Below, piece after piece: positions 4,053 to 55,781 of a stretch of 64,000 nucleotides of DNA (position 1 is its first letter; each line of letters starts with the position of its first letter). Source of the DNA: Melampsora larici-populina 98AG31 (taxonomy: Eukaryota > Basidiomycota > Pucciniomycetes > Pucciniales > Melampsoraceae). Below the pieces are notes generated by a model, which saw only the letters and a list, made by a program, of their open reading frames with translations, had not been told where the DNA came from and did not search any database. A program made the translations under genes and the position numbers. The stretch spans positions 350,686-414,685 of the forward strand of contig NW_006768809.1 in assembly GCF_000204055.1 (NCBI RefSeq), written 5' to 3'.

Positions 4053-4060
4053 TATAGCGG

Positions 4061-4135
4061 CACCTGTGGCTACCCGACCCCACGAGTATAAGCCGGTAGG
4101 AAAAATGACGTTCCCAGCGGCTAGTGGCCGTAACG
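4061..4135 (+). repeat. KDZ left terminal inverted repeat, outer block
   Basis: Inverted match to 24048-24126 with a few substitutions. The repeat is cut after CCGTAACG by a foldback element inserted at 4136. Confidence 0.88.
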
Positions 4136-4740
4136 CACTGTAAACATCATTCAACTTCCCCAATTTGGCAGAGGAAAATGATTAATAGTACAGTTTTTCA
4201 TAAAAGAATCTAATACTGCACACCTGGGCCATTTCACCCACACTACATATGTGCAGCAAGCTAAGTCAATAGTTGTCTATCATGTACATACAGGTCTGCT
4301 CAGTTTTTTGCCCATCAGAATAAATAAATCACATGTTATACCACATGTAACTTTTTCGACTGAAACTTTTTTCCCAAAAATTCACTACATATAATTCTGT
4401 AGCTGCTCAGGCAATATTGTTGAAGCTATGTCTTAGTAACAGAAAGTGTGTTACATGCAGTTGAGTTGATGAGATCACACCAAAACATTGAGTCAGTGTA
4501 TGTAGTCAATCTTTTGGAAGCTTTTTTCAATCTGAAAGAAGTTACAGCATGTATTACATATGAATAACTTGTCCTGATGAGCAGATAACTGAGCAGAACT
4601 GTATGTACATGATAACCACATATTCACTGAGCCTGCTACACATATGTAGTGTGGGTGTATGGCTCAGGTGGGAGTGATAGACCATTTATGACAAATCATA
4701 CTCCCAATCATTTTTCCCTGCCCACTTGGGGAACCCGAAT
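4136..4740 (+). mobile_element. Foldback element inserted in the KDZ left terminus (end in gap)
   Basis: Near-identical to the complete 623-bp element at 44852-45474, starting with CACTGTAAACATC. The last 13 bp or so (which would end in CAGTG) fall in the N gap. It encodes no protein. Its two halves form long imperfect inverted arms. Confidence 0.85.
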
Positions 4741-4840
4741 NNNNNNNNNNNNNNNNNNNNNNNNNNNNNNNNNNNNNNNNNNNNNNNNNNNNNNNNNNNN
4801 NNNNNNNNNNNNNNNNNNNNNNNNNNNNNNNNNNNNNNNN
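4741..4840. other. Assembly gap of 100 N
   Basis: A run of exactly 100 N, the usual placeholder for unknown length. By comparison with other copies it should hide the end of the foldback element, about 90 bp of KDZ terminal repeat and the left half of a CACTA-like element. Confidence 0.95.
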
Positions 4841-5222
4841 CGAAGAGATTACACATTTTGAGTCGAAACGAAAAGTTTGTAGTTCAGGAAATTAAGCTCT
4901 CTAATGCACCCCAAATCGAGTGTTTTGAGCCAGAATTGACAAAGTTATGGGGTTTTATAGTAATCAAAACTTTCTCTCAGCACTGATCAGCCAAATTCCA
5001 GCATCTGTTACAGGTGGTAATCTGGTGATTATGAGGGTTTATTGTTAGTACACTCACCAATATGAACCCCAAAAATACGGAAAAATATGCAGATTGGAGA
5101 TCTCATACCAAGGAACAGGATGCATATTTTTTCACATTTTTTGCTCTGTTTCTGACCTTTCCAGATTTTTGTATACAAATAATTTAATTTTCTGCCCAGA
5201 AAATGTTATGTTTCTTGTAGTG
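4841..5222 (+). mobile_element. Right half of an 816-bp CACTA-like element
   Basis: Matches the right half of the complete element at 8713-9528 and ends in CTTGTAGTG. The left half falls in the gap. The next three bases (TGT) are part of the KDZ repeat, so this element appears inserted in the KDZ terminus. Confidence 0.75.
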
Positions 5223-5500
5223 TGTGGCGCCGTCCGCCACTATATAATGGCTAATATGTCAAGGTCAGCCACAATATTGGAAATCCGCATCACACATATG
5301 TGAAATTCAATCACATATATGTGAATCCAATTCACACCCATGTGAATGTTGTCATTGCCACGGAATGTATATACAAAAAATACACCTATACCAAGGATTC
5401 ACACATATGTGAATTGATTCACGTGCAAATACAAAACAAGCCAATCCAAACAAATCACACATATGTGAATCCAATCACACATATGTGAATGCAATCACAT
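5223..5500 (+). repeat. KDZ left inverted repeat, inner block
   Basis: Starts TGTGGCGCCGTCCGCCAC and matches, inverted, the block ending at 23958 on the right side (TGTAGCGCC on the minus strand). The match runs through the first palindrome units and remains close to base-for-base over at least 270 bp. Confidence 0.85.
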
Positions 5501-6500
5501 ATATGTGGTTTCAATCACATATATGTGAATTGAGTTATGCGTAAATACAAAACACACCTATACCAACCAGTCACCCGTAGGTGAAAGTGTATCACCCTTA
5601 GGTGAAAGTGTATCACCCTTAGGTGAAAGTGTATCACCTGTATGTGAATATTAATCATTGATATTCACATACATGTAGATCAATCACATATATGTGAATT
5701 CCAATCACATATATGAATCACATATATGTGAATTTCAATCACATATAAGTGAACCTGAATCACATATATGCAAATCTCAATCACATGTATGTGATTGGTA
5801 TTCACATATATGTGAATCTGATTCACATGTACGCAAATCCCAGCTCCACATATGTGAATCTCAATCACATATATGTGAATCTCAATCACATATATGTGAA
5901 TCTCAATCACATATATGTGAATCTCAATCACATACATGTGAATCTCAATCACATATATGCGAATTGTATGTGATTGCCATCCACATATGAATCACATATA
6001 TGTGAATTTCAATCACATATATGCAAATCTCAATCACATGTATGTGATTGAAATTCACATATATGTGAATCTGATTCACATGTACGCCAATCCCAGCTCC
6101 ATATATGTGAATCTCAATCACATATATGTGAATCTCAATCACATACATGTGAATCTCAATCACATATATGTGAATTGTATGTGATTGCCATTCACATATA
6201 TGTGAAACTGATTCACATGTACGCAAATCCCAGCTCCATATATGTGAATCTCAATCACATATATGTGAATCTGATTCACATGTACGCAAATCCCAGCTCC
6301 ATATATGTGAATCTCAGTCACATATATGTGAATATCAATCACATATATGTGAATGATATTCACATATATGTGACTGAGAGTCACATGTACGCAAATCCCA
6401 GCTCCATATATGTGAATCTCAGTCACATATATGTGAATATCAATCACATATATGTGAATTCCAGTCACATATATGTGAATACCAATCACATACATGTGAA
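5292..6500. repeat. Left subterminal TCAC/GTGA palindrome array
   Basis: Dozens of units with the form TCAC-N6-GTGA-N7, period 21 bp. The usual core is ATATAT; ACATAT, ATACAT and others also occur. A sub-array at 5570-5640 uses cores CCGTAG and CCTTAG with linker AAGTGTA. A higher-order block containing GTACGCAAATCCCAGCTCC is repeated five times between 5830 and 6410. Long open frames here (HIYVN- or SHICE-type repeats) are by-products of the repeat and not genes. Confidence 0.9.
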
Positions 6501-6933
6501 TACCAATGTGCGAATTTAGGAATCCTAATCTGCGAATTTAGTCAATGCATATGTAAATAAAACACCCCTATAATAACCAAACACACATGTTAATATACAA
6601 TACATCATATTACACATATGGGAATCAGCTTCACCGCTACACTGCGGCATGCATTACATATGCCACCACACGTGCGTGATTGTCATTTTCAGTCACATAT
6701 AGACTTTGACCTCACAACCTCATCTACCCATATGTGAAGGCAAGCACATCAGGGGAATTTGCAATCAGTAATCTCATGAGATATATAGAAGACTCAAATT
6801 ACGAGGCTGATTCATCACAAATTAAATAAGAACAAGCTTTGAAAAAAAGAAGTCACAAGCGGGTTTTTTATTCAATTTATGATTCAAAAACCTATTCAAG
6901 ATTTTATAAGGTATAACAAGAAGGGACTGCTCA

Positions 6934-9900
6934 TTAATCATCATCTGAGATCACACCCTTCTCACAGTTTGGACGAGTGATCATGAAGCATTCCCTGCGC
7001 CATTGTTTATATACATCGATATTATCAGCAAACCAATCTTTCCAATCTTTGGCTTTAGGAGAACTGATGGTGCGCCAATCCGGATGGAGGTAAGGAATTG
7101 GTAGGGTGGGAGAAAACTTGAGGTCCAGAGAAATACAGTGAGTATCCCAGATGACGCCAAGAATGATTGGTCGAGTAGTACCTATTGGGGCTGAAAAAAA
7201 AGGTAAAGTTGTACATGATGCAGTAGCCACCAAGGAGTATGATATGACTGGTCTCTTGAAAGCATTTGCTATAACACAACAGCCACCGGGAATTGGATAC
7301 CACAACCTTTGTGGTGCGTGGTTCTTCCCATATTCCAGTATATTCAACATATGGGTGACAGTCGTGCCGGATGCGCTGAGTCTTGGCAACTGCTCCTTGT
7401 ACCATTCGTAGTTGGCTCGTACTTCGCTAGCCATCGTCGCTCGCACCTTCACAGCATCGCTTTCAGGACGTCCAAGTGACACCGCAACAGATGCAAAAGC
7501 ACAAAGTCCGTTCCCTTCGACATTTGTTGCCGATTTGACAAAAGGAATGAGCATCGTAGGCAGCTCTCTTAGAAAGTCCCACTTCTAAAAACGCCAGGCC
7601 AGGTATGTCAGTATATTAAAGATCGTGATATTGATACTCTGAAGGTTAGATACTCACAATCAACACTTGTTCCTCTGGGCTGGCATTTAAGAGCTTTTCT
7701 TCTTTTCGTTTTTTTTGTCTTTCAAGTTGTTCTTGTGCTTTGGCGGATATATTTTCAAGCGAAAACTAATAGGTATGTTAGCCAAATCCTATTTGATGAT
7801 TGCAAGCTTTGGAGACTGATCAAAGCTCCAAACAAGACTTACAGGTTCCGAATTTTTCGACCCCGGTGCAGGTTTTTTTGGCATCTCAGAACGTTTCGGG
7901 CGCTTGCTTACTGGGAGATCCTGCCAAACCAAAAGTAAGTATGTCAGAGCTTTGAAAAGAGAGCTTTGAAAAGTTGAACATTCAAAGCGGTCATCGACCT
8001 ACATTTTCATCCAAAGTTTGTGAGATCACTCTCACAGATTTGCGAGTCCCACGACCTCCATCTTTTATATTATCAGACGGGGTTGCCTTCTTCTCCGCAT
8101 GAGCCGCATGCCTAGTTCGAGTGGTGACAGGGGTTGGATCCGGATCCTCCCCCTGCGAGGTGAGGGGGGAGTCAGGTCTTTCAGGCCTAACTCCATTGTC
8201 TTCTATAGTGGCTTTTCCCTATCAATGGCAAACAATCAGCTATTCAATATAAAATATTGATCAATTCAAGGTTATAGACTAACCTTGCCACCATCCACTT
8301 CGTCTTCTTTGCGTGATCGGGATTCGATGCTAGTTTGGACCTTCTTGGTTACTTTCTAAAAGATATTAAAAAAACAATCATCTACCCAACTAATGTAAAA
8401 TACTGATCAAATAAAAATTATATACTAACGTTGCCAGCGTCCTCTTCATCTTCATCTTCTTCTTCGGGGGTTTGTGAAGAAATGCTGGCTTTGCCCTTCT
8501 CCGTAAATTTCTAAATGACATTAAACAAAGATTCAGATACCCAACTATGTTCAATACTGATCGAACATAGATTATAAGAACAAAAATTTTAAACTAACCG
8601 TGCCAGCATCCTCTTCTTCTCCATCTTCTTCTTTGGGAAGTCGGGATATGGTGCCCGTTTTGCCCTTATTCGTAACTTCCTAAAAGACATTAAACAAACA
8701 ATCAGATACCCACATTACACAAAATATAATATTTTCTGGGCAGAAAATTAAATTATTGATACACAAAAATATTGAGAGGCCAGGAGAAGGGCAAAAAATA
8801 AATAAAAATATGCATCTTGTTCCCTGCGGTGAGAGCTTCACTCTCCATATTTTTCCATATTTTTACAGTCCGTATTGATAAGTGTACTAACAATAAACCT
8901 TCATAATCATCCAATTACAACCTGTAACAAGCACTGAAATTTGGCTCATTAGTGTTTACAGAAACTTTTGATTTCTGAAAACGCCTATAACTTTGTCAAA
9001 TCTGCCTCAAAACACTCGATTTTAAGTGCATTAGACAGCTGACCTCTTCCTCTCGAACTTTAATAAGATCAAGAACTATGTAGCTAGTATGGTAATCATT
9101 CTATAGATCTGTATGTACAAATGTATAAAAAAGATGACATCTTTTCTAGCAGACCAGCATGCTGTGTGGTCCCATTATGAACTATTTGGAGGACAATTCC
9201 AGCTTACCAATGCACCCAAAATCGAGCGTTTTGGACCGGAATTGAAAAAGTTATGAGTATTTTCAGAAATCAAAAGTTTCTCTAAACACTAATGAGCCAA
9301 ATTTCAGTGCTTGTTACAGGTTGTAATTGGATGATTGTGAAGGTTTATTGTTAGTACACTTATCAATATGGACTGTAAAAATACGGAAAAATATGCAGAG
9401 TGAAGCTCTCAACGCAGGGAACAAGATGCATATTTTTATTCATCTTTTGCTCTCCTCCTGGCCTCTCAATATTTTTGTGTATCAATAATTTAATTTTCTG
9501 CCCAGAAAATATTATCTTTCTTGTAGTGCCAACTAATGTTCAATACTGATCTTATAAAAATTATAAACAAACCTTCTCAGCATCCTCTTCTTCTTCTTCA
9601 TCTTTGGGTGATCGGGATATGATGCTCGCTTCGCCCTTCTTTTTTCCTTCCTAAAACATATCAAACAAACAATCATGAGGAACGAATGCTTGAGAGGTTT
9701 AATCACAAACATTCGCACTCATACAAGAAGAACTCACAATCTTGGCTGAAACTTGGTCGTCTTTTGTTGAATCGTAAAGCACCTTGGTGATTTCGCAATC
9801 TCGTATGAATTGTCTGATCAGCAAGCGTTGGGTTTTCTCATCAAACTTCTTCATCATATTCTTGAGGGTCTTGTAATCATCAACAGCTTCTTGATCACTT

Positions 9901-10499
9901 TCGTCGGGGTCTTCAGATTCATAAGTAAGGTCAAGAACAATGGCATCACTTCGTTGTTTTCGTTTCTTAGCCTGAGTGGGTACCAGAGACGGAAGCTTAG
10001 GTGGTTTCAAGTTCGGTATGGGGCCATGATTGTGATTAGGATGATCGATAACGATCAACCACGTTTTGCTACTGGTTTGGTATTTTGCGGAAACTATGAA
10101 AGGACAAGTCGGAATCGAGGCGTGTGGATCTTTCGCTAGCTTCTGCAGTTGCTTTTGATTTGGGCCTTGGATACATTTCCATTTTTTGAACCTTGCCTTT
10201 GAATCCATGGATGATAAAGCGTAATCATTCGAGTGGGCAAAGTTCTTGAGAAATATCTCAGCAGCCGCGCTGCTTTCATAGGATCCTCCTGCAGGAGGAC
10301 AAGGAAGAGTTGGATTGGCACTAGTCGAAGAATCGGCAGAAGTGTTATTGGCACTGTTCATATTGGCAGGATTCGTATTGGTAGGATTCGTATCGGCAGG
10401 ATTCGTATCAGCAGGATTCTTATCGGCAGGATTCATATCGGCAGGATTCGTATCGGCAGTAGGGTCAGAGCTAATGGTCGGATTAGTTTTTGGGTCCAT
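6934..10499 (-). CDS. FAR1-type zinc-finger protein with C-terminal OTU protease domain
   Basis: A multi-exon gene of about 700 residues. Exon 1 (10499-9738) begins with a degenerate NPAD/TNP repeat of about 30 residues. A FAR1/WRKY-GCM1-like finger follows near residues 100-160: a Cys in WKCIQG, Cys-Pro-Phe, then HPNHNH. Next come four duplicated acidic exons (9650-9573, 8679-8599, 8510-8430, 8355-8284), a linker exon ending in LDEN, two lysine-rich exons, and the OTU exon (7584-6934). In the OTU domain the Cys motif reads GNGLCAF where families usually have GDGNCGF, and the His motif reads THCISLDLK. All joins keep frame with GT..AG borders. FAR1 fingers bind DNA and OTU domains cleave ubiquitin-type bonds; here they lack a transposase core. 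The gene sits in the left third of the KDZ element. The changed Asp and Asn beside the Cys leave activity uncertain. Confidence 0.75.
8284..9650 (-). repeat. Four tandemly duplicated exon-intron modules
   Basis: Exons of 78, 81, 81 and 72 bp, all phase 0, each preceded by ...TTTTAG and followed by GTTAGT or GTTTGT. Each encodes a short basic-to-acidic peptide with the pattern K-G-K-x-S-I-x-S-R-x-x-K-E-E-D...A-G. The adjoining introns are also similar to one another, so whole exon-intron units were duplicated. The oldest-looking intron carries an inserted 816-bp element. Confidence 0.85.
8713..9528. mobile_element. 816-bp CACTA-like non-autonomous element in an intron
   Basis: Right end CTTGTAGTG, left end CATTACACAAAA (a diverged CACTACAAGAAA). 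The 3-bp duplication CCA is found at 8710-8712 and 9529-9531. The arms of about 380 bp are inverted copies and contain the AGAAAATTAAATTATTGAT block. There is no coding capacity. CACTACAAGAAA-type ends with 3-bp duplications are the mark of CACTA (En/Spm) elements. Confidence 0.85.
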
Positions 10500-10574
10500 C
10501 TTGAGGTGAGGAATTGAGGTAGGTGAAAAATGAAGAATTCGATTTGAAGGGGTAGAGAAGTAGGGGTGTTGGTT

Positions 10575-11225
10575 GAAAATTCGTTCACCCCAATGTGGGT
10601 GAACTTACATTTCACATATACGGGAAATCTAAGTTCACCCACATGTGACAGAGGTACACATACGTAATCTGCCATCACACATATGTGTTGGACAGTCACA
10701 TAGTGTGATATGGCAGATTACGTATGTGTACCTTCCTTCCCATATACGTGAATGTGGATCACATATATGTGAAGCACACATATAGATTCACATATGGGTG
10801 AATATGTTTCACATATGGGTGAATATGCTTCACATATATGTGATGCACATTCAGCCCATATGTGATCCACATTCACGCATATGTGAAACATATTCACCCA
10901 TATGTGAAACATATTCACCTATATGTGAAACATATTCACGCATATGTGAATTTGGATCACATATATGTGACCACACATATAAATTCACATATGCGTGAAT
11001 ATGTTTCACATACGCGTGAATACATTTCACATATATGTGAAACATATTCACGCATATGTGAAACATATTCACGCATATGTGAATTTAGATCCACACATAT
11101 AAATTCACATATGCGTGAATATGTTTCACATCAGCGTGAATACATTTCACATATGCGTGCATATGTTTCACATATCAAAATCATATTCACGCATATGTGA
11201 AACACATTCACATATATGTGAGACT
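10575..11225. repeat. Intergenic TCAC/GTGA palindrome array
   Basis: The same construction as the subterminal arrays, lying between the divergent-side ends of the FAR1/OTU gene and the next gene. Cores vary (CCATAT, GCATAT, ATATGC, ATACGC, ATATAT), while linkers are 7 bp (AACATAT, ATATGTT, ATACATT). It begins about 75 bp upstream of the FAR1/OTU start codon, so it could act in that promoter (inference). Confidence 0.88.
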
Positions 11226-11539
11226 TTAATAATATTCTCACATAGGACACTTTATCTCACTCTCTCAGCCGGCCTTGTTCTACATAAGTAAGTCTCAATG
11301 AAAGATTGAGACTGACAAAGAAAAATAAAATAAAATTTCATATTGATCCGATTTCATAATTCAATCAATTTGATTTCGACATCTGAAACTATCAAAAATA
11401 TAGAATATAGGCAAAAACTTTCATGATTTTCTACTTGCTTATGTCGTGGTCAAACCTTCAAAATGAATGATAAAACAAGGTGCAAGTTGACGGTTTTGAG
11501 TCTTTCGAGCATGTTGAGCAGCAAGGCATTGCAGTTGTT

Positions 11540-12035
11540 TTTTCTTGCAAGCAAGCCACCGGATGTTGTCGTGGATGATCTTCAGGCTACATATGGAGAT
11601 AATTGGTTAGTTCAATACAAAATACTCTTTAATAAGTTTGGGAAGTTTTGTTTACTTACTTGATAATCTTGTGGAAAGTTTGACCAATACCTCTCCATTG
11701 TCTCTCCATCCCAAGTATGAGGTTGCGCCTAGATAATGAGATATATTAGTACGCGAGGTTGCAACATGGGTTTGCAACAGATGAATACTTACTTGGTCAT
11801 GGTTTGGATAGCTTGACAGAGATTCTCCACAGATTGGGTTTTGTCGTTTGTGTTTTTCCCATACCACGGGGTTGAAATGGTCGAGTGTAAGAGGTTTCCC
11901 GACACCATTATGGAAATCACGGGTATAGAAGTGACGAATGTTGTTGAACCGACCAAACGTAAAGTGGTCGTACTGATGAGAAAGGTCCATCTTAAGGAAG
12001 TTGTTTATGAAGGTGGGGTTTGTTGTCTGATTCAA
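11540..12035 (-). CDS. Small gene of unknown function inside the KDZ element
   Basis: Exon 1 (12035-11793) starts MNQTTNPTFINNF and ends at a GTAAGT donor. Exon 2 (11726-11660) contains HTWDGETMERYWS and ends at GTAAGT. A third exon probably begins at 11580 or 11587 and encodes a basic, Cys-containing tail; its exact end is uncertain. I recognise no domain. DGE..ER.WS faintly recalls the DGEG..ER.WS motif of KDZ transposases, but this is too short to rely on. It lies tail to tail with nothing and shares the spacer with the Tet-like gene, facing away from it. Confidence 0.4.
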
Positions 12036-12719
12036 AGCAAAGAGAGAGAAGTAGGGATGGTAATTTTAATGACTTAAAATTACCATCCCAAACCTAACCC
12101 ATGCTTGAGCTGGGTGGTACAAACCAGACCTAACCCGGATACCGCGTAAGCTCAAATGAACCAAAGACCTCCAGCAGCCTCCACCTGCGATCATTCAATC
12201 GCAAAGGACCAAACGAATCATTATTTCATCCCATAAAGATCTCTCCACCTGCAGATTGAAGCTGCTTTCTCCTTCGTTGTCGGACTCCGTGCTACGAACC
12301 GGGAGAATTTGGCCTTCTCAGGAAGGAAGTTCTATATTAAATCTTTTTATTCGCTCTTATTCTGTTGGTTTCAATCCTTAATTCAAACTATCGAACAAAG
12401 TCTCACTACTTGGAATCTGTGCTAGGAATCCGCTTAGGTTAGTAGAATCATCATGCTACTATACTTGAATGAGTTGGAAACTGATCGATCGTTTCTTAAA
12501 TCCATTCAATTCTGGATCTTTCATTTATAGAAGCGATTAGTTTATTAGCTGGACTCAACTTTTCTGATCCTACTGGTGATCTTATTACATTTGTGAGTCT
12601 CATTACGATGAATATTGAATCTATCTGCTTATCAATGATCGGATAGACTGAACTAATTGTGGTAACCTTTTATCTGTAGTTTGTAACTTCACAATCCTCG
12701 TTTTACACCTGATTGTACC

Positions 12720-14224
12720 ATGACACGTCAAAGAAGTACACTTCGAAAGAAAAAAGCGGGTATTCATGTCTGTAGCTTCAAGTCTAGAACCTCTCCGAGC
12801 TACTACAAATCCCGTGCTAAATACAGGAAAGAAAAAACGATTGGTCAGGTTTATCGTCGTCATCATGCAAAGCGAACACAATTGAAAAGACAACTGGTTG
12901 AAGAATTAGGTTTACCTCTAAATACTAAATTCATTTTTCGTTATAGTATCATTGACAGACCTTTAGTAGTACCTTCCAAAATTATCATCGACTCTGGTAC
13001 TGTAGTGGTAATTAATAAAAAGGATCTTTCTATTGTTTTGATTGTCCGATTCACTCCTTTTGAAAAGATGGATAAGGATCTTAGGGATAAATATAATCAT
13101 TCTATGTCAACAACCTTTCTTCATGCCCGAGCTAGAAATCAGTGCAAGATTCATACCTCGCTTAAAAAAGGCGAACTAGAAGAAGGAGAAGAGGAAGAAG
13201 AGCCTTTATCTGGCTGGATGGGTTGTACTGGATGGCGAGGTGGATGTGAGAAAGATAAATCCGCAGGTATGTGATTGGCGTTCTGAGTATAATTCCAAAT
13301 CTTTACTGAATTGGATAACATATCACCATTTTGCATATATCTATCTATAGGTCCCTATACTTTAAACGCTTTCACCTCTGCAAATATAGATAGAATCCAG
13401 ACGGATAAAGAACGGATGGAAGAGTATCATCGGATACAAGATTTTTGGGCGGAACGATTTTCTAGTTTATCATTGAAGGTATTTAAAACGAATGTTGATC
13501 TTGCTTTGAAAGCAAAGGTACCAGGTTTTCACGAATTAAAATGGCAATTAACCCAAAATGGTTTGGTATTTGCATCTAATCTTGTGGTTACGTGTGAAGG
13601 GTTTTACAATTACTCACACACTGACAAGGATCATACTAGATACGGTTTTGGAATGTGGGGATTGATTCTAAAAGCATCAGGAGTACTATATGATAAGGAG
13701 AAAGGAATTCAAAATTGTGAAAAGGACTCGGTGAAGCTTGGAGAAGTTAAAGGTGCAAATTTTTGTATAGATAGTTTTGGAATTGAGGTAGCTATGGGTG
13801 TATGTAATGGTGTGGCAGATATGGTGTGGGATACAACCGTAAGTAATTTTATTTTTGATTTGGAATGACTCTTGGTTTTATTTAATCCAAGATTGTTTAT
13901 ATGTAGATTCCCCATTATACAACTCCCTCGAAAGCTTATGATGGTCAAGGTAAGGAGATTGACCACAAAAAAAGCATAGTAACTTTATACGGTTCCTCCT
14001 GCCAGATATCTGAGGCTCTGGTGAATAGGATTAGGCTACTAGGTGAGAAGCAAGCTGGGATGACTGATTCTCAATGGAAGCAGCACTGCGATGCAAGGGT
14101 GAAAACTTATGAGGAAATGTTTGAAGACAAAGTTGAGAAGGCAACTAATAAGTTGAAATCTAAATCTGAGAAAATTTCTAAAAACCTTGTGGTCAGGAGG
14201 AAAACAAAGAAAAGCCAGGGTTAG
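12720..14224 (+). CDS. Tet/JBP-like 2-oxoglutarate Fe(II) dioxygenase
   Basis: Three exons (12720-13266, 13351-13838, 13907-14224) with GTATGT..TAG and GTAAGT..TAG introns give an uninterrupted protein of about 450 residues. The N-terminus (residues 1-70) is strongly basic. The double-stranded beta-helix core holds the Fe-binding H-x-D in YSHTDKDHTRYGFGMWG (near residue 285) and a distal His in DTTIPHYTTPS (near residue 345). A coiled, Lys-rich tail closes the protein. Tet/JBP enzymes oxidise 5-methylcytosine or thymine in DNA, and expansions of such genes inside KDZ transposons of basidiomycetes are established. The gene lies 685 bp from the small upstream gene on the opposite strand. No stop or frameshift is seen, so activity is plausible. 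The residue that would bind 2-oxoglutarate was not identified with certainty. Confidence 0.78.
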
Positions 14225-14333
14225 CTTTTTGGTGACTTCTAAAGTTGTATTTAGATGCGTAACAATTTGATTCTGTAAGAAAGGTCATATATTGTTTAAA
14301 TTTGTGAGAAGTCTATCCTACATCCCCCTAATC

Positions 14334-14535
14334 ACACCAGGTGAATGCGGTTCACCTGGTGTGAATTCAATTCACACCAGGTGAATTCAATTCACACCAG
14401 GTGAATGCAATTCACACCAGGTGAATGCAATTCACACCAATCAATTTTGAAGAAAATACATATTCTACATTCCACAGTTTGACGGCCTGGCCCCTTTTCA
14501 GGCACTCTGTGTTTCCACTGTTCCACCTTCACAGT
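14334..14535 (-). repeat. Inverted duplicate of a transposase exon and its repeat array
   Basis: The reverse complement closely matches 19665-19885: the exon segment encoding VEEWKHRVPEKGPGRQTV, the following GTATGT-type donor region and the first TCAC-N5-GTGA units (core ACCAG/CTGGT, period 20). It is a local copy made within the element and is not a separate gene. Confidence 0.85.
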
Positions 14536-14810
14536 CATCCAGAATCATCTAGGTGATCACAGAGATGTGAATCTCTACTTTAGGCGGATTTCTGGAGTTT
14601 GGTTGGATTCACATGGAGGTGATTCCACTGAATCATTATTATAAGATCAGTGATAACTTCTCAATTGGATGACTTGGGCCTCCAAGTCATATACATATGA
14701 CTTGTAATGTCGGAGATATGTGTATATATTAATCACATTGCACATTGTGTTTAAGATGTATGAGATTTTTAGGCTGATAATGAGTAATATACACATTATC
14801 AGATCTAATA
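14536..14810. other. Spacer before the 180-bp tandem repeats
   Basis: No coding sequence recognised. Several short palindromes on GTGAATC/GATTCAC are present. Confidence 0.4.
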
Positions 14811-15480
14811 CCTGGATGTGAAAGAGTCCATATTACCACAACTTTTACAGTTTTGGGAAATGTCTGGATCTGAGTTGATTTTTGGAATCAGACAGGTTTA
14901 TTTACCTTATGGCAATACTTGTTAGCCATGAGGTAGAGGATGTTTTGGGGTAAGTTGAGACCACTTCACATTCTCAGATATATACGCATACCTGGAAGTG
15001 AAAGAGTCCATATTACCACAACTTTTACAGTTTTGGGAAATGTCTGGATCTGAGTTGATTTTTGGAATCAGACAGGTTTATTTACCTTAGGGCAATACTT
15101 GTTAGCCATGAGGTAGAGGATGTTTTGGGGTAAGTTGAGACCACTTCACATTCTCAGATATATACGCATACCTGGATGTGAAAGAGTCCATATTGCCACA
15201 ACTTTTACAGTTTTGGGAAATGTCTGGATCTGAGTTGATTTCTGTAATCAGACAGGTTTATTTACCTTATGGCAATACTTGTTGACCATAAGGTAGAGGA
15301 TGTTTTGGGGTAAGTTGCGACAACTTCACATTCTCAGATATATACACATACCTGGATGTGAAAGTGTCCATATTACCACAACTTTGACAGTATTGGGAAA
15401 GGTCTGGATCTGAGTGGATTTTTGGAATCAGATAGGTTCTATTACCTTATGGCAATACTTGTTAGCCATGAGGTGTTTAC
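14811..15480. repeat. Tandem repeat of 180 bp, about 3.7 copies
   Basis: Units start at about 14811, 14991, 15171 and 15351 with CCTGGATGTGAAAG or CCTGGAAGTGAAAG. The first two are almost identical and the fourth is most diverged and shortened. There is no conserved open frame. The repeat lies between the convergent ends of the Tet-like gene and the acidic gene. Confidence 0.92.
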
Positions 15481-15519
15481 CTGCAAGATGTTACAACTTC
15501 TTATCAAGAATGGGTGCAG

Positions 15520-15640
15520 CTTGAAATCACCGCTGTGTGAATGTCATTCACACGGGGTGATTGTCTTTCACCATGATGTGAATGACATTCACCCCGTGTG
15601 ATTCACCTTCATACCAAAATGTGTGAATGCGTAATCAGGC
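15520..15640. repeat. Short TCAC/GTGA palindrome cluster
   Basis: Three or four units with 5- or 6-base cores (ACGGG, CATGAT, CCCGT) and 7-base linkers, following the same rule as the large arrays. Confidence 0.75.
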
Positions 15641-15871
15641 CATTCACATGGCCTGAAATGAAATGAGGCCTTATATAGATATTCAATGTGTTATGATGAG
15701 TAGGTGATCATGAATCATATTGACATCATTCAAAACAGATGAATACCATAGATTTTGGAAAAATATAAAGATGGAAAAAGAGAAAAGGGAAAACAAAAGA
15801 TTTTGGACAAATAGAATAAAGATGGAAATCCATTTTCCATTGGTGTATATTTTTGAAATGAATGTATAAGA

Positions 15872-17949
15872 TCATTCGTCCTCATCAACATCCTGATCAA
15901 TATCTCCAAAACCATTCCACTCTTCCTCTGATTTGTCTAAGTCTTCATCCACATCCATGTCGAAGTTGTCATTTTCCTGATAATCCTGAATATCCTGTGT
16001 CATCATCACTTGATCTTCTGTTGCTGAAACACTTTCATCCGCAGTCTCTTCAAGAGGTTCTGAATCTGCTTTGATTTTTTCCATCTTGAACTTACTTGCT
16101 TGTACATTGTCCAGCCAAAGGCTTCTACGACTATTCATGGCATTAAAACCCAGTTTCAGGACCTCAGAAGGAAGTTTGGAACCTGGCAGTTGGATAATAT
16201 TAATACCATGGTCTTCCCGTAACAAAGAAACTGGGTCTGGTCCACGGGGGAAACCTTGTTCCTTCCCGGTCAAGGAACCTGTCATAAATTATAAATATGT
16301 ATTTGTTAGATATTGACAAAGATTATCCAGCTATTTCTGATAGCTTTGTACGTACTGAAACTTCCTCGCAGCAACAGTGCCAGATCAGCTTTGACTATAT
16401 CACCAGGATCGGTTTTTCGAACCTTTCCACCATTTGACATAACATTGGGTCCAACTATTTGAGCAACTGCCTCGGCCACCGAAAGGCCTTGGGCGTGTGC
16501 GGCAAATACCTTGCCGAAGTTGCTCTTCTTATTGACATATACAGCCATTGCATCGTGAGACGTGAACTCCCTAGCCCATCCAGGCGATCCGCAGGAAGCC
16601 TCAGTTGAAGCATGGGTGCTACAAGCCAAGAGGTAGTATGAGAACTCCATGTTATTGGATTCGTTTTCAATCTATGAAAGAGAACCTTTTTTCAGTTAAG
16701 CTATAAAGTTTTGATATTATCTGACAACTTACATCGCTGTGGATCCGCTCTATGCATTTGAGAGATTTGCGGTTGAAATCGGGAAGAGAAGGACCACCTT
16801 GCCCAGATGCAAGTTTCGCATATTCCTTGGCTACCTTGTCTTTACAAACCAAATCATCGTAGAATCCTTGTAATTTAGCAAGTACTTCTGGCTGAAGCTG
16901 AAGTTTCTCTACATCACTTTCATCGTCATCATCCCCCGAATTGTGAACCAGGCCCGACAAAGTGTAAAAGACTGAAGGCTCAAACACTTCTCGATGCTCT
17001 AGAGGCATAGCTGTCCAGATCTTCCCTAGCTTACGGTTTCGAGCAGCCAATATTCCCTTATGTCCTTTGCCTGCAGGCACTGTATTTAGTGTGTGGAAAG
17101 ATCAGCGTGATTAGATCTTGATTAGATCTTGATTCTATATGTAGAGAGATGTACTTACTTCGGTAATCACGTCTTGCTTTGCTGTACTTTAAGAATATTT
17201 GATAGTGTCCGCCTTTGCGCCGGCCTCCAAGCTCACCCCTGAAAACGGGTTGTCAAAAACGCGAAGTCAAGAAATCTCCAAAAAGACAAAAGTGAAGTAA
17301 TAGGTATGATTACTTACAAAGCTTTTTGAAGAGTGAACATACTTATATTGCCCATGATGGTCAGCATCGCCTTCTGATGTTTGTAAATCTTTCGAATCGC
17401 TCTTGCTTCCGTCAAGATATGCGGAGGAACAGCGGTTCCTTTCTTCTTCTGAGATCGTTTGACTTCCGCAATGCGACCAAGTGGCCACTCGTTCAGCAGG
17501 TTCTTGTATTCCTTAATGGTAGGTAAGGGTGTTTCCGATTCATCGAGATGAGCAGTCTCCCCGGTTTGTTGGGTTGCAGTAGTTTTTGAAAGTCTTGTTT
17601 TACGGTGATCGTCATCCGAGTTGATTTGTCTTGCAAGTCGATCAAGTAACTCAGCATCATCACTTTCTTCATCCGAGTTCACTCGGGTTCTTTTGTGTTG
17701 AGTGGGTCAAAGTTGCAAATCAATCACTTCATCTTCGATATCTTCATCATCTTCCGTTTTGTATTCATCTTGGCTTTCATCATCGTCCTCTATGTTCTCT
17801 GCTTGACGAGAGGCTGAGACACGGCGTTGGGGAGCTCGACTTCCATTGGAACCAGTGGCCAGCTTTCGAAGTTTAGCGCGGGAGTTCGTTACAGTTGAAG
17901 GGTTTGTGGTGGAACCCTTTAGTGTTTGAGATCTTGTGTTTCTTGGCAT
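15872..17949 (-). pseudogene. Acidic KDZ-borne gene of unknown function, one premature stop
   Basis: Five exons on the minus strand with GT..AG introns. The first encodes a basic start (MPRNTRSQTLKG) and a very acidic stretch. An in-frame TGA at 17707-17709 follows DLQL, after which the same frame continues with TRVNSDEESDD and a basic segment. Later exons encode RRKGGHYQIFLKYSKARRDYR, a segment with HREVFEPSVFYTLSGL, then CSTHASTEASCGSPGW, and a C-terminal acidic tail (DMDVDEDLDKSEEEW). The alternation of basic and acidic blocks suggests a nuclear chromatin-type protein, and the GHKG..LWxAM..EHREVF style segment vaguely recalls HMG-like regions, but I do not claim a family. It stands divergent to the transposase, 498 bp apart. 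If TGA was CGA the reading frame would be complete; alternatively translation starts downstream. Confidence 0.6.
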
Positions 17950-18446
17950 CTTGTAAGGGGATTATCAATCGTAGAATATTGATGGAAGTGATCAGTAATC
18001 AGAACGCAATAAATATAGTGAGGGCAGGCAGGTCAGGAGAAGTATTGAGTCAGTGAACTTACCAGAGCGAGACTGTATTTTGAATTAGTGGGAATGTGAG
18101 AAAATATTTGAAATATCCTACGTCTATCAAATCAGACTTTGAATCTTGTCGCACAACATTCAAGGTGTATTGTCAACTGTATTAATCATCGACCTTTTGG
18201 AAGGATATGCCACTGATGAGCTACGAAAGTATTGTGGCTTGGCTCATAAAACAGAGAGAGGGAGCTTTGAAATTTTTATATAGGGGCTGTATCTTTAGAC
18301 ATTTAGCTCCTTTGGGTAGACAGGGGTGAAGTTGCCCCATCCGTTTTGAGTATTTCCAATTGAGGTAACAACCAACCTGTGATCGTTCTTTTTCAGATAT
18401 CATGCTTTTAAACCGCAACATTTTACTATCTTAAGACCTACGATCC

Positions 18447-21400
18447 ATGGCTAAAGGGAACAAAATCGACTGTCCACTGGGTGGTCCATCCAATAAGAAA
18501 CGACGTACTCAGCGCGAAGCTCAAGGCTCTGCCATCCTGGCCGAAGAACTCAATGCTAATGAAGCAAAATACATCAATAACCGCATCAAAGAAATTGAGC
18601 GTGCACTTAATGACGCTTCCAACGGTCAGGCAAATCAAGTTGAGGGCGGCGACATCGAGCTTACTGCGGCAAAAGAAAATCCAAACGCTGATAACGACAA
18701 CGGGCTTTATAATCACGTCGAGGAGTTCCTTCCGCATCCCCATCCAGAGAATCCTGAAGGGGTTCCGCGGATGGATGTGCCATTTGCTGAATATGTTCAA
18801 GGGTCTTATTACAAAAGCAAACGGTTGGCAGAAAAGAAAAATTGGCAGAAGGCCTTACCTGCTATGTTTCTCTCCTACATGACCTTGTGCCAGGAGACGT
18901 CGCAATGGGGGAACAGAACCCGCTGGAACCACGACTACAACAATGCAGTCTGTGCGTGTGGGGGAGGAGACCTGAAGATTCGTAAGGTTGACATGGTAGA
19001 TATTTTAGGTGAGTATTTGTTGTTAGGAATGCGTTTCATGACATTAATATTAATGTCATGAAATGGGATTGCATGTCAGAACGTAGGCAAGAAGAAATCC
19101 GGTTTTGTAAATGTACATTAGATCAAGTTCGTCTGATCCATATGGGTTACATCGGAGGGTCCCCAGTGCATCCTCAAGTAGCATTTTCTATCAGGCTACT
19201 GAGGTTGCACCATGCATTGTGGAAGTATTGTACGGTCAGAACCCAGGGATTTACTCTTGGGTTGGATGAGTTTCTCGACCCAGCCAGCCCTTTGATATTG
19301 GTTGCAAAAACAAATCAAGCAAGTTTCGTTGAAAATCATCATCTGATGTTTTTCCACGGATTCTGACTTATGATGGACATTGCAGCCTTGAAAGTGGCGC
19401 AGGCTTTTCTCTTCAGCCATTGATGCATATAGAAACATGCTACGCAAAGGGCAGCAACTCACAATATGCGCATTATATCTCACAGCTTTGGATCAACTGG
19501 CTATGAATTGCCCAAGATGTTTTGGACCACTTCAAGGAAATGATCAGGCAGACAAGACAGACTATCATGTCTGTACCAATGGAAACTTTCAACACCGCCG
19601 ACACCTTGCTGCAAGCCGCGAGTACGAGGAAACAGAAATGGAAACTCCGCCTCTTTTCCTGGATAATAGTAAGGTGGAAGAGTGGAAACACAGAGTGCCT
19701 GAAAAGGGGCCAGGCCGTCAAACTGTGGTATGTAGAATATGTATTTTCTTCAAAATTGGTTGGTGTGAATTGAATTCACCTGGTGTGAATTGAATTCACC
19801 TGGTGTGAATTGAATTCACCTGGTGTGAATTGAATTCACCTGGTGTGAATTGGATTCACCTGGTGTGAATTGAATTCACCTGATGTGAACCGCATTCACC
19901 TGGTGTGATTTGCATTCACCTGGTGTGATTTACATTCACCTGGCGTGATTTGAATTCACAAGGCGTGATTTGAATTCACCGGGCCTGATTTGAATTCACC
20001 GGGCCTGATTGCAATTCACCTGGTGTGATTGCAATTCACCTGGTGTGATTACAATCACCTGGTGTGATTGCAATTCACCTGGTGTGATTACAATCACCTG
20101 GTGTGATTTCAATTCACCTGGTGTGATTACAATTCACCTGGTGTGATTACAATTCACCTGGTGTGATGTGAAATCTTTGGATTTGACCAAACTCACATCA
20201 GAGCGATAGAATTGACCTCTCTATGGGAGTCACACTGGGTGATTTCAAATCACATCAGGTGAAATAAAATCACACTGGGTGATTTTGATTCACATTGGGT
20301 GATTCATAATCACGTCGGGTGAATTTGAATCACATCAGGTGAATGGGTTCACCTGATGTGAATGAGGGTCACACTGCTTGGTCGAGATAGATCACTGGTC
20401 TCTTGAGGTGATAGAAGGACTAATGGTGCTTTCATTTTACTTTAGGACCCATGTACGGCCTCTCACACGGCTGCATCAGATGTACGGGGAAAGTCAACTT
20501 GGAAGGGATGTGATGAAACCGGACTCATTGGTTTGGCTTGCAGACACGATCACGTATTGAACTTTGTCAATGTGGTACAGAGCGGAGAGAAGTGAGGTTT
20601 CCCACAAATATGAAATAGACTACGCAACTACTGATATCCACGTTTTTATGAAATAGGCAGTATTTTGTGCTTGCATTGCTTGATCAGCTGATGAAAGATA
20701 CCGCAGAGCCAGGCAAACCAACCAAAAGCATGACAGTTTTCTACGACATTGGTTGTACGCTAGAAAAAAGTGTACAGAAGGTAAAGTTCTTATATTTGCA
20801 TTTTCCGCTCACATGTCTCTGATTCAGGAGCTTCATTTCACAGAACAAATATTTTGAAGATGAATACCAGCGTGGACTTCTCAGATTTGCAACTAGTGCA
20901 TTTCATGCGTATGCACATAAATGGACTTGTCAGCTCAAGTACAATCCCCGGCTGAACAAGGGTAATGGATTGACAGATGGAGAAGGAAATGAGAGGATCT
21001 GGTCTGACCAGGATCCTCTCATAGCGCCAAATAGATCTTTGACCAAACAACACCGAGTTGATGCTATAGATTTAAAGGCAAGTCATGGAAATGACACAAG
21101 ATGTAATAATGCAGGTATGTAATGTTACCTAAAAACGCAATGATGATGGAAATTAACAGGACACAATCTTATATTTGCAGCACTTTCCACGGAGGTGAAA
21201 CTATATACTGCACAAACACAATTCAACGTGGCATCTGCTACACTCGAAAGGCTGGAATCTCAAGATAGTTCTTTCACATATGTCTATTTTGCCAGGCAGT
21301 GGGAGCGGCAGAAGGCCACCCAGTTGGCTGCCATGGAAGACGGTGGAGCAAGAAAGAAGCTAGAAGATTATTTGATTGAACTTCTTGACCTGGAAGAGCA

Positions 21401-22798
21401 GGTGAAGGAAGCGCAGTACGTTGTGGTAATTTAATTTCAGTATTCTTGTGGATGCGTGCTGACTGTAGTGTTTCAACAGCCAAGAGCTAAAGCGTCTTCG
21501 GAGAAAGAGAAGAAGCAATCGGACGGAAGATGAAGTGGCGCAATTCCTGACTTTGCCAGCTTCCATTGTTGAACTCGAGATGGCAGTTGAAGATCTGAGA
21601 CAAGAGTTAGGAAACCCTGAGTTCACTCAACTTAAAGCAGCCACAAGTGGGTTTTGGTGATATATTCAACAAATCTAAATATTGACTGACCTCTTTGTTC
21701 TCAATAGGTCCCAAAGCACAAGCCTTGATACGTGTGCGTCTCGCCAAGATGAGGCTATATGAAGCTAAAGTTGGGATAGTGGAAGCCCAGAAAAAGTGGG
21801 ACAAGGATGGTCAAGGCGAGTTTTTTTATTTTACAACGGCTACAAGCATGCATTCATGTATGGAATGTTTATGTATTGTAGGTACAAAAGCACAACAAGG
21901 ACTAAAGACTTTCATGAACAAGAAACAATTGGCGTTCAAGAGGAAGTGGACATCCTACCAGTCTCAGGTGACGCAGTACAACAAAATTCGGCCCGTGAGC
22001 CGGATGGTCTGTCCATCACTCGACGAAGCCAAAAGACTACCCTTTGAGGATATATTCTGGAATGTGGGGGCTCTTTCTCATCCTACAGAGAAGTGGGCTA
22101 TAGATCCTGGAACAATTGAAGGTATACAAGCATTTTTACAGCACCGTGCGTGTAGTGAAGAACTTCGAAGGATTGGACGAGAGACCCAGCAGATGGTACA
22201 TCAGGCTTTAAAGACTGAAGAAAAACTAGATGGACTACTGGCTTTGTGTAGGAGTGGTAAGTTTGTCTGTTTTCCTGGTTTCTCTGTTATGTTTTCTAAT
22301 CTAATGTTTTATGGTCTTGTGTATATGTAAGATTATAATCCGGAAAATGGTGGAAGGGATATAATTGAATTAGTGCAGCCTGGACAGCGTATCTCCAAGG
22401 ATGTTTGGGATTTGAATGTGTTAGTCTTAAAAGCCCTCCATGACAATCTGCGTCAGAAACATTGCAAGAGATGGATGATGTGGAATTTAAATCTGGTGGA
22501 ATTGTTACAAAGGTCATATGTTTATACAAGGTCAACAGCGGAGGAAATTGATATATTGATCAAGCGCTGGGAGGGTTTGGTTTGTAGAGGTAAATCAACT
22601 TGGGAGTGTATTGTAAAGGCAGGAAGTGTAGAAGCAACCACCCTGGATGAATTGGAAACTTTTGAGCAAGATATGCTGCATGGTGAGGATGACGTAGCAC
22701 AACTTAATCAGCAGGCGGATCGCCTGTACATATTTGATGAAGAGCCTGAAGAGGAGGAGGGTTGGATGGACAGTGGGATGGACGTGATATATGAATAG
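18447..22798 (+). CDS. KDZ family transposase
   Basis: About ten exons. Exon 1 (18447-19008) has a basic N-terminus. Exon 2 (from 19080) carries a CxC1-type Cys cluster: FCKCTLDQVRLIHMGYI, then GGSPVHPQVAFSIRLL. Downstream are CPRCFGP, the NGNFQHRRHLAAS segment, then after an intron filled with palindromes DPCTASHTAA, GCDETGLIGLACRHDHVL, SGEKQYFVLALLDQL, FYDIGCTLEKSV, SAFHAYAHKWTCQ and GLTDGEGNERIWS, all hallmarks of KDZ transposases. The C-terminal third is helical, with coiled-coil character, and ends with an acidic tail (PEEEEGWMDSGMD). The usual DGNFQ is NGNFQ here; if that Asp is catalytic, as I believe, the enzyme could be inactive. All joins I traced keep frame. It is divergent from the acidic gene at 15872-17949. 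Confidence 0.88.
19762..20365. repeat. Palindrome array inside a transposase intron
   Basis: About 20 units of TCAC-CTGGT-GTGA with 7-base linkers (ATTGAAT, TTGCAAT, TTACAAT), period 20. From 20220 a more varied set follows, with cores ATCAG, ACTGG, ATTGG, GTCGG. The array lies between the exon ending GPGRQTV (about 19727) and the exon starting at DPCTASHTAA (about 20446), so it must be spliced out if the transposase is expressed. Confidence 0.9.
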
Positions 22799-22889
22799 AT
22801 ATACTATTTTTTGTGTTTTATTTGTTGTGTTGTGAAATGAAATTGAAACAAGTTCTTGAATGTGATCCTATCCTGTACATCATATCCTA

Positions 22890-23905
22890 TACACATTCAC
22901 CTACAGGTGTTGTGTATTCACCTGGGTGTTGTGTATTCACCTGGGTGTGGATTTTATTCACCTATGGGTGATTTGTGTTCACCCATAGGTGAATTTTATT
23001 CACCTATGGGTGAATTTTATTCACCTATGGGTGAATTTTATTCACCTATGGGTGAATTTTATTCACCTATGGGTGAATTTTATTCACCTATGGGTGAATT
23101 TTATTCACCTATGGGTGAATTTTATTTACCTATGGGTGAATTTTATTTACCTATGGGTGAATTTTATTCACCCATAGGTGATACACATTCACCTATGGGT
23201 GAATTGTATTCACCTATCGGTGATACACATTCACCTAAGGTTGATTGGTTTGTATATGTGTGTTTGGAATTTACAAGTCACTCACTACACATAAGTGGGA
23301 TTTGGATTCACACGTGTGATTTGTTTGTATGGGTTTACCTTGTATTTACATGTGGCGGCATTGACTCATTGCAATTCACATATATGTGATTAGGATTCAC
23401 ATAAGTGTGATTGGTTTGTATAGATGTGTTTTGGTGTTTTTTATTTACACATGACTCACTTCACATATATGTGATTAGGATTCACATATGTGTGACTGGG
23501 TCGTATAGGTGTGTTTTGTATTTACACGTGACACAATTCACAGAATTCACGATTTATATTCACATACGGGTGATACATTTTCACCTACGGGTGACTGGTT
23601 GGTATATGTATGTTTTGTATTTACGCATAACTCAATTCACATATATGTGATTGAAATCACATATATGTGATTGGATTCACATATGTGTGATTGGATTCAC
23701 ATATGTGTGATTTGTTTGGATTGGCTTGTTTTGTATTTGCACGTGACTCAATTCACATATGTGGGATTGGGATTCACATATGTGTGAATCCTTGGTATAG
23801 GTGTATTTTTTGTATATACATTCCGTGGCAATGACAACATTCACATGGGTGTGAATGGGATTCACATATATGTGATTGAATTTCACATATGTGTGATGCG
23901 GATTT
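22890..23905. repeat. Right subterminal TCAC/GTGA palindrome arrays
   Basis: From 22930 to 23180 about ten units of TCAC-CTATGG-GTGA-ATTTTAT, period 21, are nearly homogeneous. From 23180 to 23905 follow units with varied cores (CCATAG, ATATAT, ACATGT and others). The last 280 bp are the inverted counterpart of 5223-5500. Confidence 0.9.
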
Positions 23906-23958
23906 CCAATATTGTGGCTGACCTTGACATATTAGCCATTATATAGTGGCGGACGGCG
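23670..23958 (-). repeat. KDZ right inverted repeat, inner block
   Basis: Reverse-complement partner of 5223-5500, including the palindromes and the GGCGGACGGCGC motif at the outer side. Confidence 0.85.
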
Positions 23959-24047
23959 CTACAGATGGTTCCATGCCTTTTCTCAATGGAAGCAGCCCTC
24001 AGAAATCACTTTGAGTCCGACGCGTCGGGACGGCGGCGTGTCGGTGG

Positions 24048-24126
24048 GTGACGTTACGGCTACTAGCCGCTAGGAATGTCATTTTTCCCACCGGCTTATA
24101 CTCGTGGGGTCGGGTAGCCACAGGTG
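24048..24126 (-). repeat. KDZ right terminal inverted repeat, outer block
   Basis: Partner of 4061-4135. It ends ...GGGTAGCCACAGGTG, directly followed by the duplicated target TATAGCGG. Confidence 0.9.
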
Positions 24127-24134
24127 TATAGCGG

Positions 24135-44851: not shown

Positions 44852-45474
44852 CACTGTAAACATCATTCAACTTCCCCAATTTGGCAGAGGAAAATGATTA
44901 ATAGTACAGTTTTTCATAAAAGAATCTAATACTGCACACCTGGGCCATTTCACCCACACTACATATGTGCAGCAAGCTAAGTCAATAGTTGTCTATCATG
45001 TACATACAGGTCTGCTCAGTTTTTTGCCCATCAGAATAAATAAATCACATGTTATACCACATGTAACTTTTTCGACTTTGAAATTTTTTTCCCAAAAATT
45101 CACTACATATAATTCTGTAGCTGCTCAGGCAATATTGTTGAAGCTGTGTCTTAGTAACAGAAAGTGTGTTACATGCAGTTGAGTTGATGAGATCACACCA
45201 AAACATTGAGTCAGTGTATGTAGTCAATCTTTTGGAAGCTTTTTTCAATCTGAAAGAAGTTACAGCATGTATTACATATGAATAACTTGTCCTGATGAGC
45301 AGATAACTGAGCAGAACTGTATGTACATGATAACCACATATTCACTGAGCCTGCTACACATATGTAATGTGGGTGTTATGGCTCAGGTGTGGAGTGATAG
45401 ACCATTTTATGACAAATCATACTCCCAATCATTTTTCCCTGCCCACTTGGGGAACCCGAATAATGTCTGCAGTG
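44852..45474. mobile_element. 623-bp foldback element in LINE ORF2, complete copy
   Basis: Starts CACTGTAAACATC and ends GATTATTCG-type inverted sequence closing in CAGTG. Flanked by AAAA on both sides; reading the LINE across with one AAAA gives the expected LTKVEWGVPPHLMRT. Inverted arms cover most of its length (CCCACACTACATATGTG / CACATATGTAATGTGGG). A second copy sits in the KDZ left end at 4136. Confidence 0.85.
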
Positions 45475-55592: not shown

Positions 55593-55781
55593 AAACTTAA
55601 CAAAGTCCCTCGCCAAAGGCCCAAGCCCCAGCAAGGGACTTACCGCATAAACTGAAATGCTGGCGTGAGAAGTGAGCTGTATTTGCTCCAAATTCTCTAC
55701 ATCTGTTTGTTTTTTTCTCTCTCAACAAACATGTCTTGCAACAAAGAAAGAAGAAAATGGCAAGGGACCATTACATATGTA

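Follow-up and report, generated by a model that had tools for sequence, protein, structure and literature searches.

The 64,000 nucleotides analysed here (the window: contig NW_006768809.1 of the rust fungus Melampsora larici-populina 98AG31, positions 350,686 to 414,685 of the forward strand) contain a KDZ transposon at positions 4061-24126 whose non-coding DNA is occupied by arrays of a short spaced palindrome, TCAC-N5/6-GTGA, the units of which follow one another across a linker of seven bases. The same geometry recurs in one clade of KDZ elements of this genome, and it is found in two arm dialects, TCAC and TCCC, each associated with its own group of a small AFT-type protein. We propose that the arrays constitute an address code of the KDZ family, bound by its own AFT/FAR1-type protein, which would mark the element for the TET-like enzyme or the transposase encoded by the same element; we estimate the probability of this reading at about 0.56.

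An earlier note on this DNA had proposed one spacing rule for the palindromes, and in the window element the rule is real. Exact units number 116 (33 with a five-base core, N5, and 83 with a six-base core, N6), located between 5290 and 23896, while the 44 kb of the window outside the element contain none and 200 dinucleotide shuffles of 5223-23963 gave means below one unit per class (0.49 for N5, 0.39 for N6). Pairs of units spaced by seven bases, observed 70 times, never appeared in any of the shuffles. When the distance between arms was allowed to vary from 0 to 15 bases over the whole element, TCAC-Nk-GTGA had k of 5 or 6 in 116 of 123 cases, and GTGA-Nk-TCAC had k of 7 in 94 of 115 and of 6 in 11. 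The claim that the linker is seven with few exceptions holds for touching units (gap below 10 bp), where it is found in 70 of 77, and not for consecutive units at large, whose gaps are exactly 7 in 70 of 115, 6 in seven and longer in 38; eight of these longer gaps measure 28 or 49 and so equal the 7-base linker extended by one or two full periods of 21 bp.

Both terminal repeats carry arrays, and others are located upstream of the AFT-type gene, within an intron of the KDZ gene and in three smaller places between the TET-like and KDZ genes; none of the 116 units starts within the seven exons listed. The left terminal or subterminal repeat carries 35 N6 units (5290-6499; C38 holds a further copy of the same end, 84% identical) and the right one 25 N6 units (22958-23896). 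Upstream of the AFT-type gene there are 20 units (10635-11221), and the KDZ intron contains 18 N5 units with a period of 20 (19776-20166), followed by a second array of seven N5 units (20230-20361). The smaller places hold five N5 units (14332-14424), two isolated N6 units (14557-14622) and four mixed N5 and N6 units (15527-15601). All the arrays named earlier were thus recovered and the two isolated units added; the array at 14332-14424 is not independent, since it lies inside an inverted, 93% identical copy of the KDZ exon/intron border at 19671-19868.

The half-site consensus drawn from 517 distinct N6 and 47 N5 units is AWTCACMY, its four arm letters being fixed by the way in which the units were selected; in the same set the middle three bases of the linker carry next to no information (0.01-0.16 bit). 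Each unit consists of two half-sites in alternating orientation, one per approximately 10-10.5 bp, the distance between arm centres being 9 or 10 bp over the core and 11 bp over the linker, so that successive half-sites are placed on one side of the helix. That the linker remains constant at seven with a core of either five or six suggests that a contact may be established across the linker. Cores perfectly complementary to themselves, earlier described as frequent, are a minority (130 of 675 N6 cores pooled over loci). Homogenisation within and not between arrays was borne out for the KDZ introns, in which N6 cores differ at 1.40 of 6 positions within arrays versus 2.84 between them, and linkers at 2.49 of 7 versus 3.51.

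The genome holds at least 207 KDZ matches. The clade of the window element was delimited as the 25 copies at least 70% identical to its KDZ C-terminal exon, after which identity drops to 63% (150 of 286 candidates were scored). The intron preceding that exon was examined in 23 of the 25 members, two of them being assembly gaps, and every one of the 21 readable introns carries an array. TCAC units are present in 20 (3 to 25 exact units each), the sole non-TCAC intron being that of C49, with a TCCC-N6-GGGA array. Tandem Repeats Finder, run with no preset motif, returned a unit of 19-22 bp with differing cores in all 21; cores and linkers vary between loci and the geometry is the same. When dyads were defined by self-complementarity only, in one chosen unit per array, 19 of the 20 TCAC arrays agreed in the register of the TCAC arm; the dyad of C77 is one base out of register, and C49 has TCCC in the common register. 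Far from spreading widely in other copies, which the earlier note had named as a reason to abandon the rule, linker lengths peak sharply at seven: among intron spacings of 0 to 15 bases, GTGA-to-TCAC is N7 in 193 of 230 and TCAC-to-GTGA is N5 or N6 in 219 of 251. Intron gaps of up to 80 bp other than 7 are in phase beyond chance, 20 of 54 measuring 28, 49 or 70.

In KDZ loci of other clades (30 loci, ±1.5 kb around the match, 105 kb), arrays were found in none; these loci contained five single units and no pairs, and a scan for dyads with any four-letter arm yielded scattered hits only. That all KDZ elements carry arrays is thereby ruled out, and the earlier formulation, which extended one rule to every palindrome array of the KDZ element, was too broad. 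The spacing rule is a property of one among the many KDZ clades of this genome; a sister group has different arms arranged in the same geometry. Genome-wide, double units outnumber those of the reversed pattern by 834 to 1 for N6, 41 to 0 for N5 and 11 to 0 for TCCC. The N5 double units occur at five loci, in all of which the array lies 0.5-1.1 kb from a clade KDZ gene exon; among the first places listed for N6 double units, on C2, one (C2:168 kb) has no clade KDZ gene in the match tables. TCCC-type double units without a nearby AFT-type gene in the match tables were seen at C32:771076-772070. A chance origin of the arrays is ruled out by the shuffles, the reversed patterns, the unit-free remainder of the window and the pair-free KDZ loci of other clades.

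The protein that we propose as reader of the arrays is encoded on the minus strand at 9702-10499 and is a putative DNA-binding protein of 266 amino acids of the AFT/FAR1 type (WRKY-GCM1 fold). Its 64 matches in the genome divide into a first group of 21 (at least 109 bits), a second group of five (70-74 bits) and a remainder of 38 that are weaker or partial. TCAC units (6 to 30 exact) are located upstream of all 19 first-group genes tested out of the 21, the window gene included, whereas the five second-group genes all have TCCC units upstream (3 to 7 exact) and none has TCAC units there. Hence, among those tested, the score of the AFT-type protein parts the dialects without overlap, TCAC at 109 bits or more and TCCC at 70-74. 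The genes of both groups are linked to the other parts of the element: 17 of 21 in the first and four of five in the second lie within 12 kb of a TET gene or within 25 kb of a clade KDZ exon, a total of 21 of 26 versus less than one expected by chance per kind. Upstream of the distant AFT-type genes, 17 of the 38 further matches being tested, neither TCAC nor TCCC arrays were found. These upstream regions (17 kb), the KDZ loci of other clades and the window remainder are the array-free comparison DNA; in these samples, the other observation that had been held to count against the rule, an equal occurrence of arrays in DNA unrelated to KDZ elements, was not made. One distant gene, on C11, is preceded by a 21-bp repeat with GTACCGGTAC, and another, on C1, by 14 ACAC-N2-GTGT dyads (L095, C1:2671471-2672470) with a period of approximately 12, possibly a third dialect with another geometry.

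The element at C49 bears on the choice among the candidate readers. It carries TCCC arms both in its KDZ intron and upstream of its AFT-type gene, a second-group gene located 20 kb away. Its transposase is 83% identical to that of the window, 12th of 25 by score, most TCAC elements being at 72-78%, and in a tree of a 158-bp KDZ exon, with the root unresolved, it groups with the TCAC subset C4, C11, C77, C27 and C15 (support 0.887). By TET the TCCC elements C99, C68 and C49 (69%) occupy ranks 7 to 9, with many TCAC elements scoring lower. Neither transposase nor TET thus sets the TCCC elements apart from the TCAC elements, and of the three encoded proteins the AFT-type protein is the only one whose score follows the dialects. 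Of the earlier suggestions, an element-encoded protein as reader is accordingly the best supported, and the FAR1/AFT-type protein fits best; the scores of the transposase and of the TET-like enzyme do not sort the dialects.

Some caution is called for in this assignment. Within the DNA-binding domain, C77, a TCAC element, is 40% identical to the window protein and the TCCC group 40-41%, only the score differing in this domain (85 bits for C77 versus 70-75 for the TCCC group), and the dialect change is a single event. A clean protein swap in C49, at first suggested by an apparent conflict between its KDZ and AFT evidence, is not claimed; the KDZ tree puts C49 beside C77 and C27, and these two are among the most divergent of the first-group AFT proteins (35 and 38%).

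Concerning the nature of the protein, the window member scores 21.5 bits against the AFT profile, with a cut-off of 21.6, and seven of nine members match at E ≤0.01, the best at 2e-6. A Pfam scan of the nine gave AFT only (E ≤0.01), DUF1985 and DUF287 being absent. The KWKC, TCPF and HxH motifs are conserved in those aligned homologues that extend over these positions, with H156 and H158 invariant and a C-C-H-H pattern present; we take these residues to be zinc ligands. The best structural match of the modelled domain is DNA-bound AFT2, followed by four WRKY domains, and the protein models as an AFT2/WRKY fold.

We propose the following model for the arrays. The AFT/FAR1-type protein would bind each half-site through its WRKY-GCM1 DNA-binding domain, and its predicted helical C-terminus could pair the molecules. 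Bound molecules would touch each other over the 7-bp linker, which is constant, as well as over the 5- or 6-bp core, leading to a cooperative coating of the array. The element marked in this manner may attract its own TET-like dioxygenase, its transposase or both, and would then stay free of silencing, control its own promoter and have its ends recognised. The arrays would turn over by tandem duplication, so that cores and linkers diverge over time while the arms and their spacing stay constant, and the arms would change when the protein lineage changes. More tentatively, and with less than even confidence, the system could be a form of fungal self-recognition independent of that of plants, in which the WRKY-GCM1 proteins would form a one-sided cooperative filament along the element's own non-coding DNA, with one molecule per helical turn, and bring in the TET-like enzyme to erase silencing marks, and in which a change of the arm word with the geometry retained would found a new family.

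The alternative that survives best, although we consider it unlikely, is that the KDZ/CxC1 transposase binds the arrays as subterminal repeats, in the manner of En/Spm or hAT elements, in order to assemble the ends, the intron and promoter arrays being by-products or autoregulatory copies. The two largest arrays are indeed subterminal, and the right one begins within the terminal repeat, 230 bp short of the end of the element; the distribution of the arrays matches a single transposase clade; and a hAT transposase is reported to make extensive contact with its transposon end (PMC10368747). However, the transposase exon of C49, with its TCCC arms, is nearer to that of the window than most TCAC elements are and groups with TCAC elements in the tree, and arrays also recur far from the ends, within an intron and upstream of a different gene. 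A second alternative, to which we give a low probability, is that the element makes use of the host, the arrays being read by a DNA-binding protein of the host or through nucleosome positioning. The period of 20-21 bp and the A/T-rich flanks would fit a host protein or nucleosomes. A single host reader, though, would not predict two arm dialects in one genome, each tied to its own element group where tested, which counts against it.

Somewhat more doubtful is neutral satellite growth, by which an ancestral palindromic repeat would have spread through slippage and conversion, with the spacing merely inherited. The arrays are homogenised within loci, their length varies between copies (C38 and the window), and their shared position implies common descent, all of which neutral growth would accommodate; against it, cores and linkers diverged between loci and arms and spacing did not, the intron gaps other than seven are in phase, and C49 has the TCCC arms at both of its sites. 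Least probable of all is an action as RNA, in which the palindromes of the intron and of gene-upstream DNA would, once transcribed, form hairpins feeding or blocking small-RNA silencing, since few of the N6 cores are perfect palindromes and hairpins leave the 7-bp linker and the fixed arm word unexplained.

The closest known system to the address code proposed here is that of the Arabidopsis VANDAL transposons. In these, the VANC protein binds short motifs and removes methylation; the motifs form rapidly evolving tandem repeats located in introns and in intergenic and terminal DNA, and related VANC proteins use other motifs (Hosaka et al. 2017, PMC5735166; Sasaki et al. 2023, PMC10398659). The rust arrays share with them the tandem short motifs in introns, intergenic and terminal non-coding DNA of their own element, the fast turnover and the variation of the motif among relatives. 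They differ in that the VANC motifs (YAGTATTAY; AGTTGTCC/AGTTGTAC) are not described as spaced palindromes in the consulted parts of those reports. Moreover, VANC carries DUF1985/DUF287 whereas the rust protein matches AFT, the rust element also encodes a TET-like dioxygenase, unlike VANDAL, and anti-silencing, demonstrated for VANC, would be only a presumed activity of the AFT-type protein. By analogy the latter may work like VANC, and we do not class it as a VANC protein. Were the proposed code true, it would be a second, independently evolved case of transposon self-marking for anti-silencing, after Arabidopsis VANC.

Elements with short repeated transposase sites near both ends are known in the hAT and En/Spm groups, and the rust element resembles them in its repeated short sites by both ends; unlike theirs, its sites occupy an intron and a gene-upstream region as well, with rigid dyad spacing. 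The known zinc-finger proteins of the AFT, FAR1 and WRKY-GCM1 types are host regulators or Mutator-like transposases. AFT1/AFT2, FAR1/FHY3 and the WRKY-GCM1 regulators have in their DNA-binding domain the fold that is modelled for the rust protein, whose best structural match is AFT2-DNA, but the latter is a separate small protein inside a KDZ element. TET-bearing KDZ transposons were reportedly described by Iyer and colleagues in 2014. Dileera, KDZ elements of which TET-positive members occur in rusts, include Zisupton-1_PGr, with an 8-bp target duplication (Kojima 2025, PMC12730594). The window element shares with them, as far as the consulted part of that paper describes them, the KDZ-type transposase, the TET-like gene, the 8-bp target duplication and the rust host; those descriptions mention neither palindrome arrays nor an AFT-type gene, and the words 'subterminal', 'tandem repeat', 'TCAC' and 'FAR1' are absent from its main text ('AFT' was not looked for). 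No prior description of such arrays in KDZ elements was found among the listed titles and openings of abstracts. The paper sections consulted give no mechanism by which the TET enzymes carried by fungal transposons locate their targets; an address code with a partner protein would, if true, supply one. The arm dialects are in addition natural experiments on the joint change of a protein and its many sites, and the strict dyad spacing predicts a nucleoprotein structure that can be tested.

The extent of the transposon was established from its inverted repeats and from the second copy of one end, at C38; the limits of 5292-23905 assumed previously were too narrow, and the target duplication lies farther out. 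The octamer TATAGCGG is found at 4053-4060 and, identical, at 24127-24134. The outer left terminal inverted repeat (4061-4135, plus strand; first bases CACCTGTGGCTACCCG) is 94.7% identical to the right end over 75 bp, and the right terminal inverted repeat (23374-24126, minus strand) is in addition 81.6% identical to 5223-5817 (620 columns). The terminal repeat begins with CACCTGTGGC, which together with the 8-bp duplication agrees with both structural hallmarks of KDZ elements. One or more later insertions (4136-5222, including a 100-N assembly gap at 4741-4840) split the left terminal repeat; of these, 4136-4740 is 98.7% identical to 44852-45461, and 4895-5222 is a repeat with another copy at 8711-9040.

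The TET-like 2-oxoglutarate (2OG)-Fe(II) dioxygenase gene (12687-13865, plus strand) comprises two open frames. PF20515 matches the second, 13293-13865, with E 6.8e-30, identifying a TET/JBP-like gene inside the element; the first, 12687-13271, has no Pfam match and presumably belongs to the same gene. The transposase, on the plus strand, includes the CxC1 cysteine cluster (19013-19363; PF18802, E 4.1e-27), followed by the exon ahead of the array intron (19392-19725), with a weak KDZ match (E 0.041) and eight homologues, one of them in Melampsora americana at 70% identity; in that species the homologues of this exon and of the AFT-type protein are 65-70% identical. The array-bearing intron (19726-20445, GT...AG) has its borders placed from sequence and not from transcripts, the next exon being conserved in aligned relatives. 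The C-terminal part of the transposase domain (20823-21119) matches PF18758 with E 3.7e-23 and 82.8 bits, the curated cut-off being 26.6, as expected of a KDZ domain.

Between the TET-like and KDZ genes there is also a 180-bp tandem repeat (14808-15474; 3.7 copies, 94% matches). Open frames on the minus strand at 15875-17961 and 6937-7584 indicate that the element may encode further proteins; 6937-7584 and four of the five pieces of 15875-17961 gave no Pfam match at cut-off. Farther out, 1-906 and 55777-56682 are inverted copies with 99.8% identity that carry a 79-bp satellite with the palindrome TCCAGTCGATCGACTGGA (4-277 and 56406-57031), and they may mark the termini of a far larger structure within which the KDZ element lies. 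At 60095-62485, on the minus strand, a Mutator-like element (MULE) transposase domain (61532-62485) adjoins a long open frame and constitutes a separate transposon.

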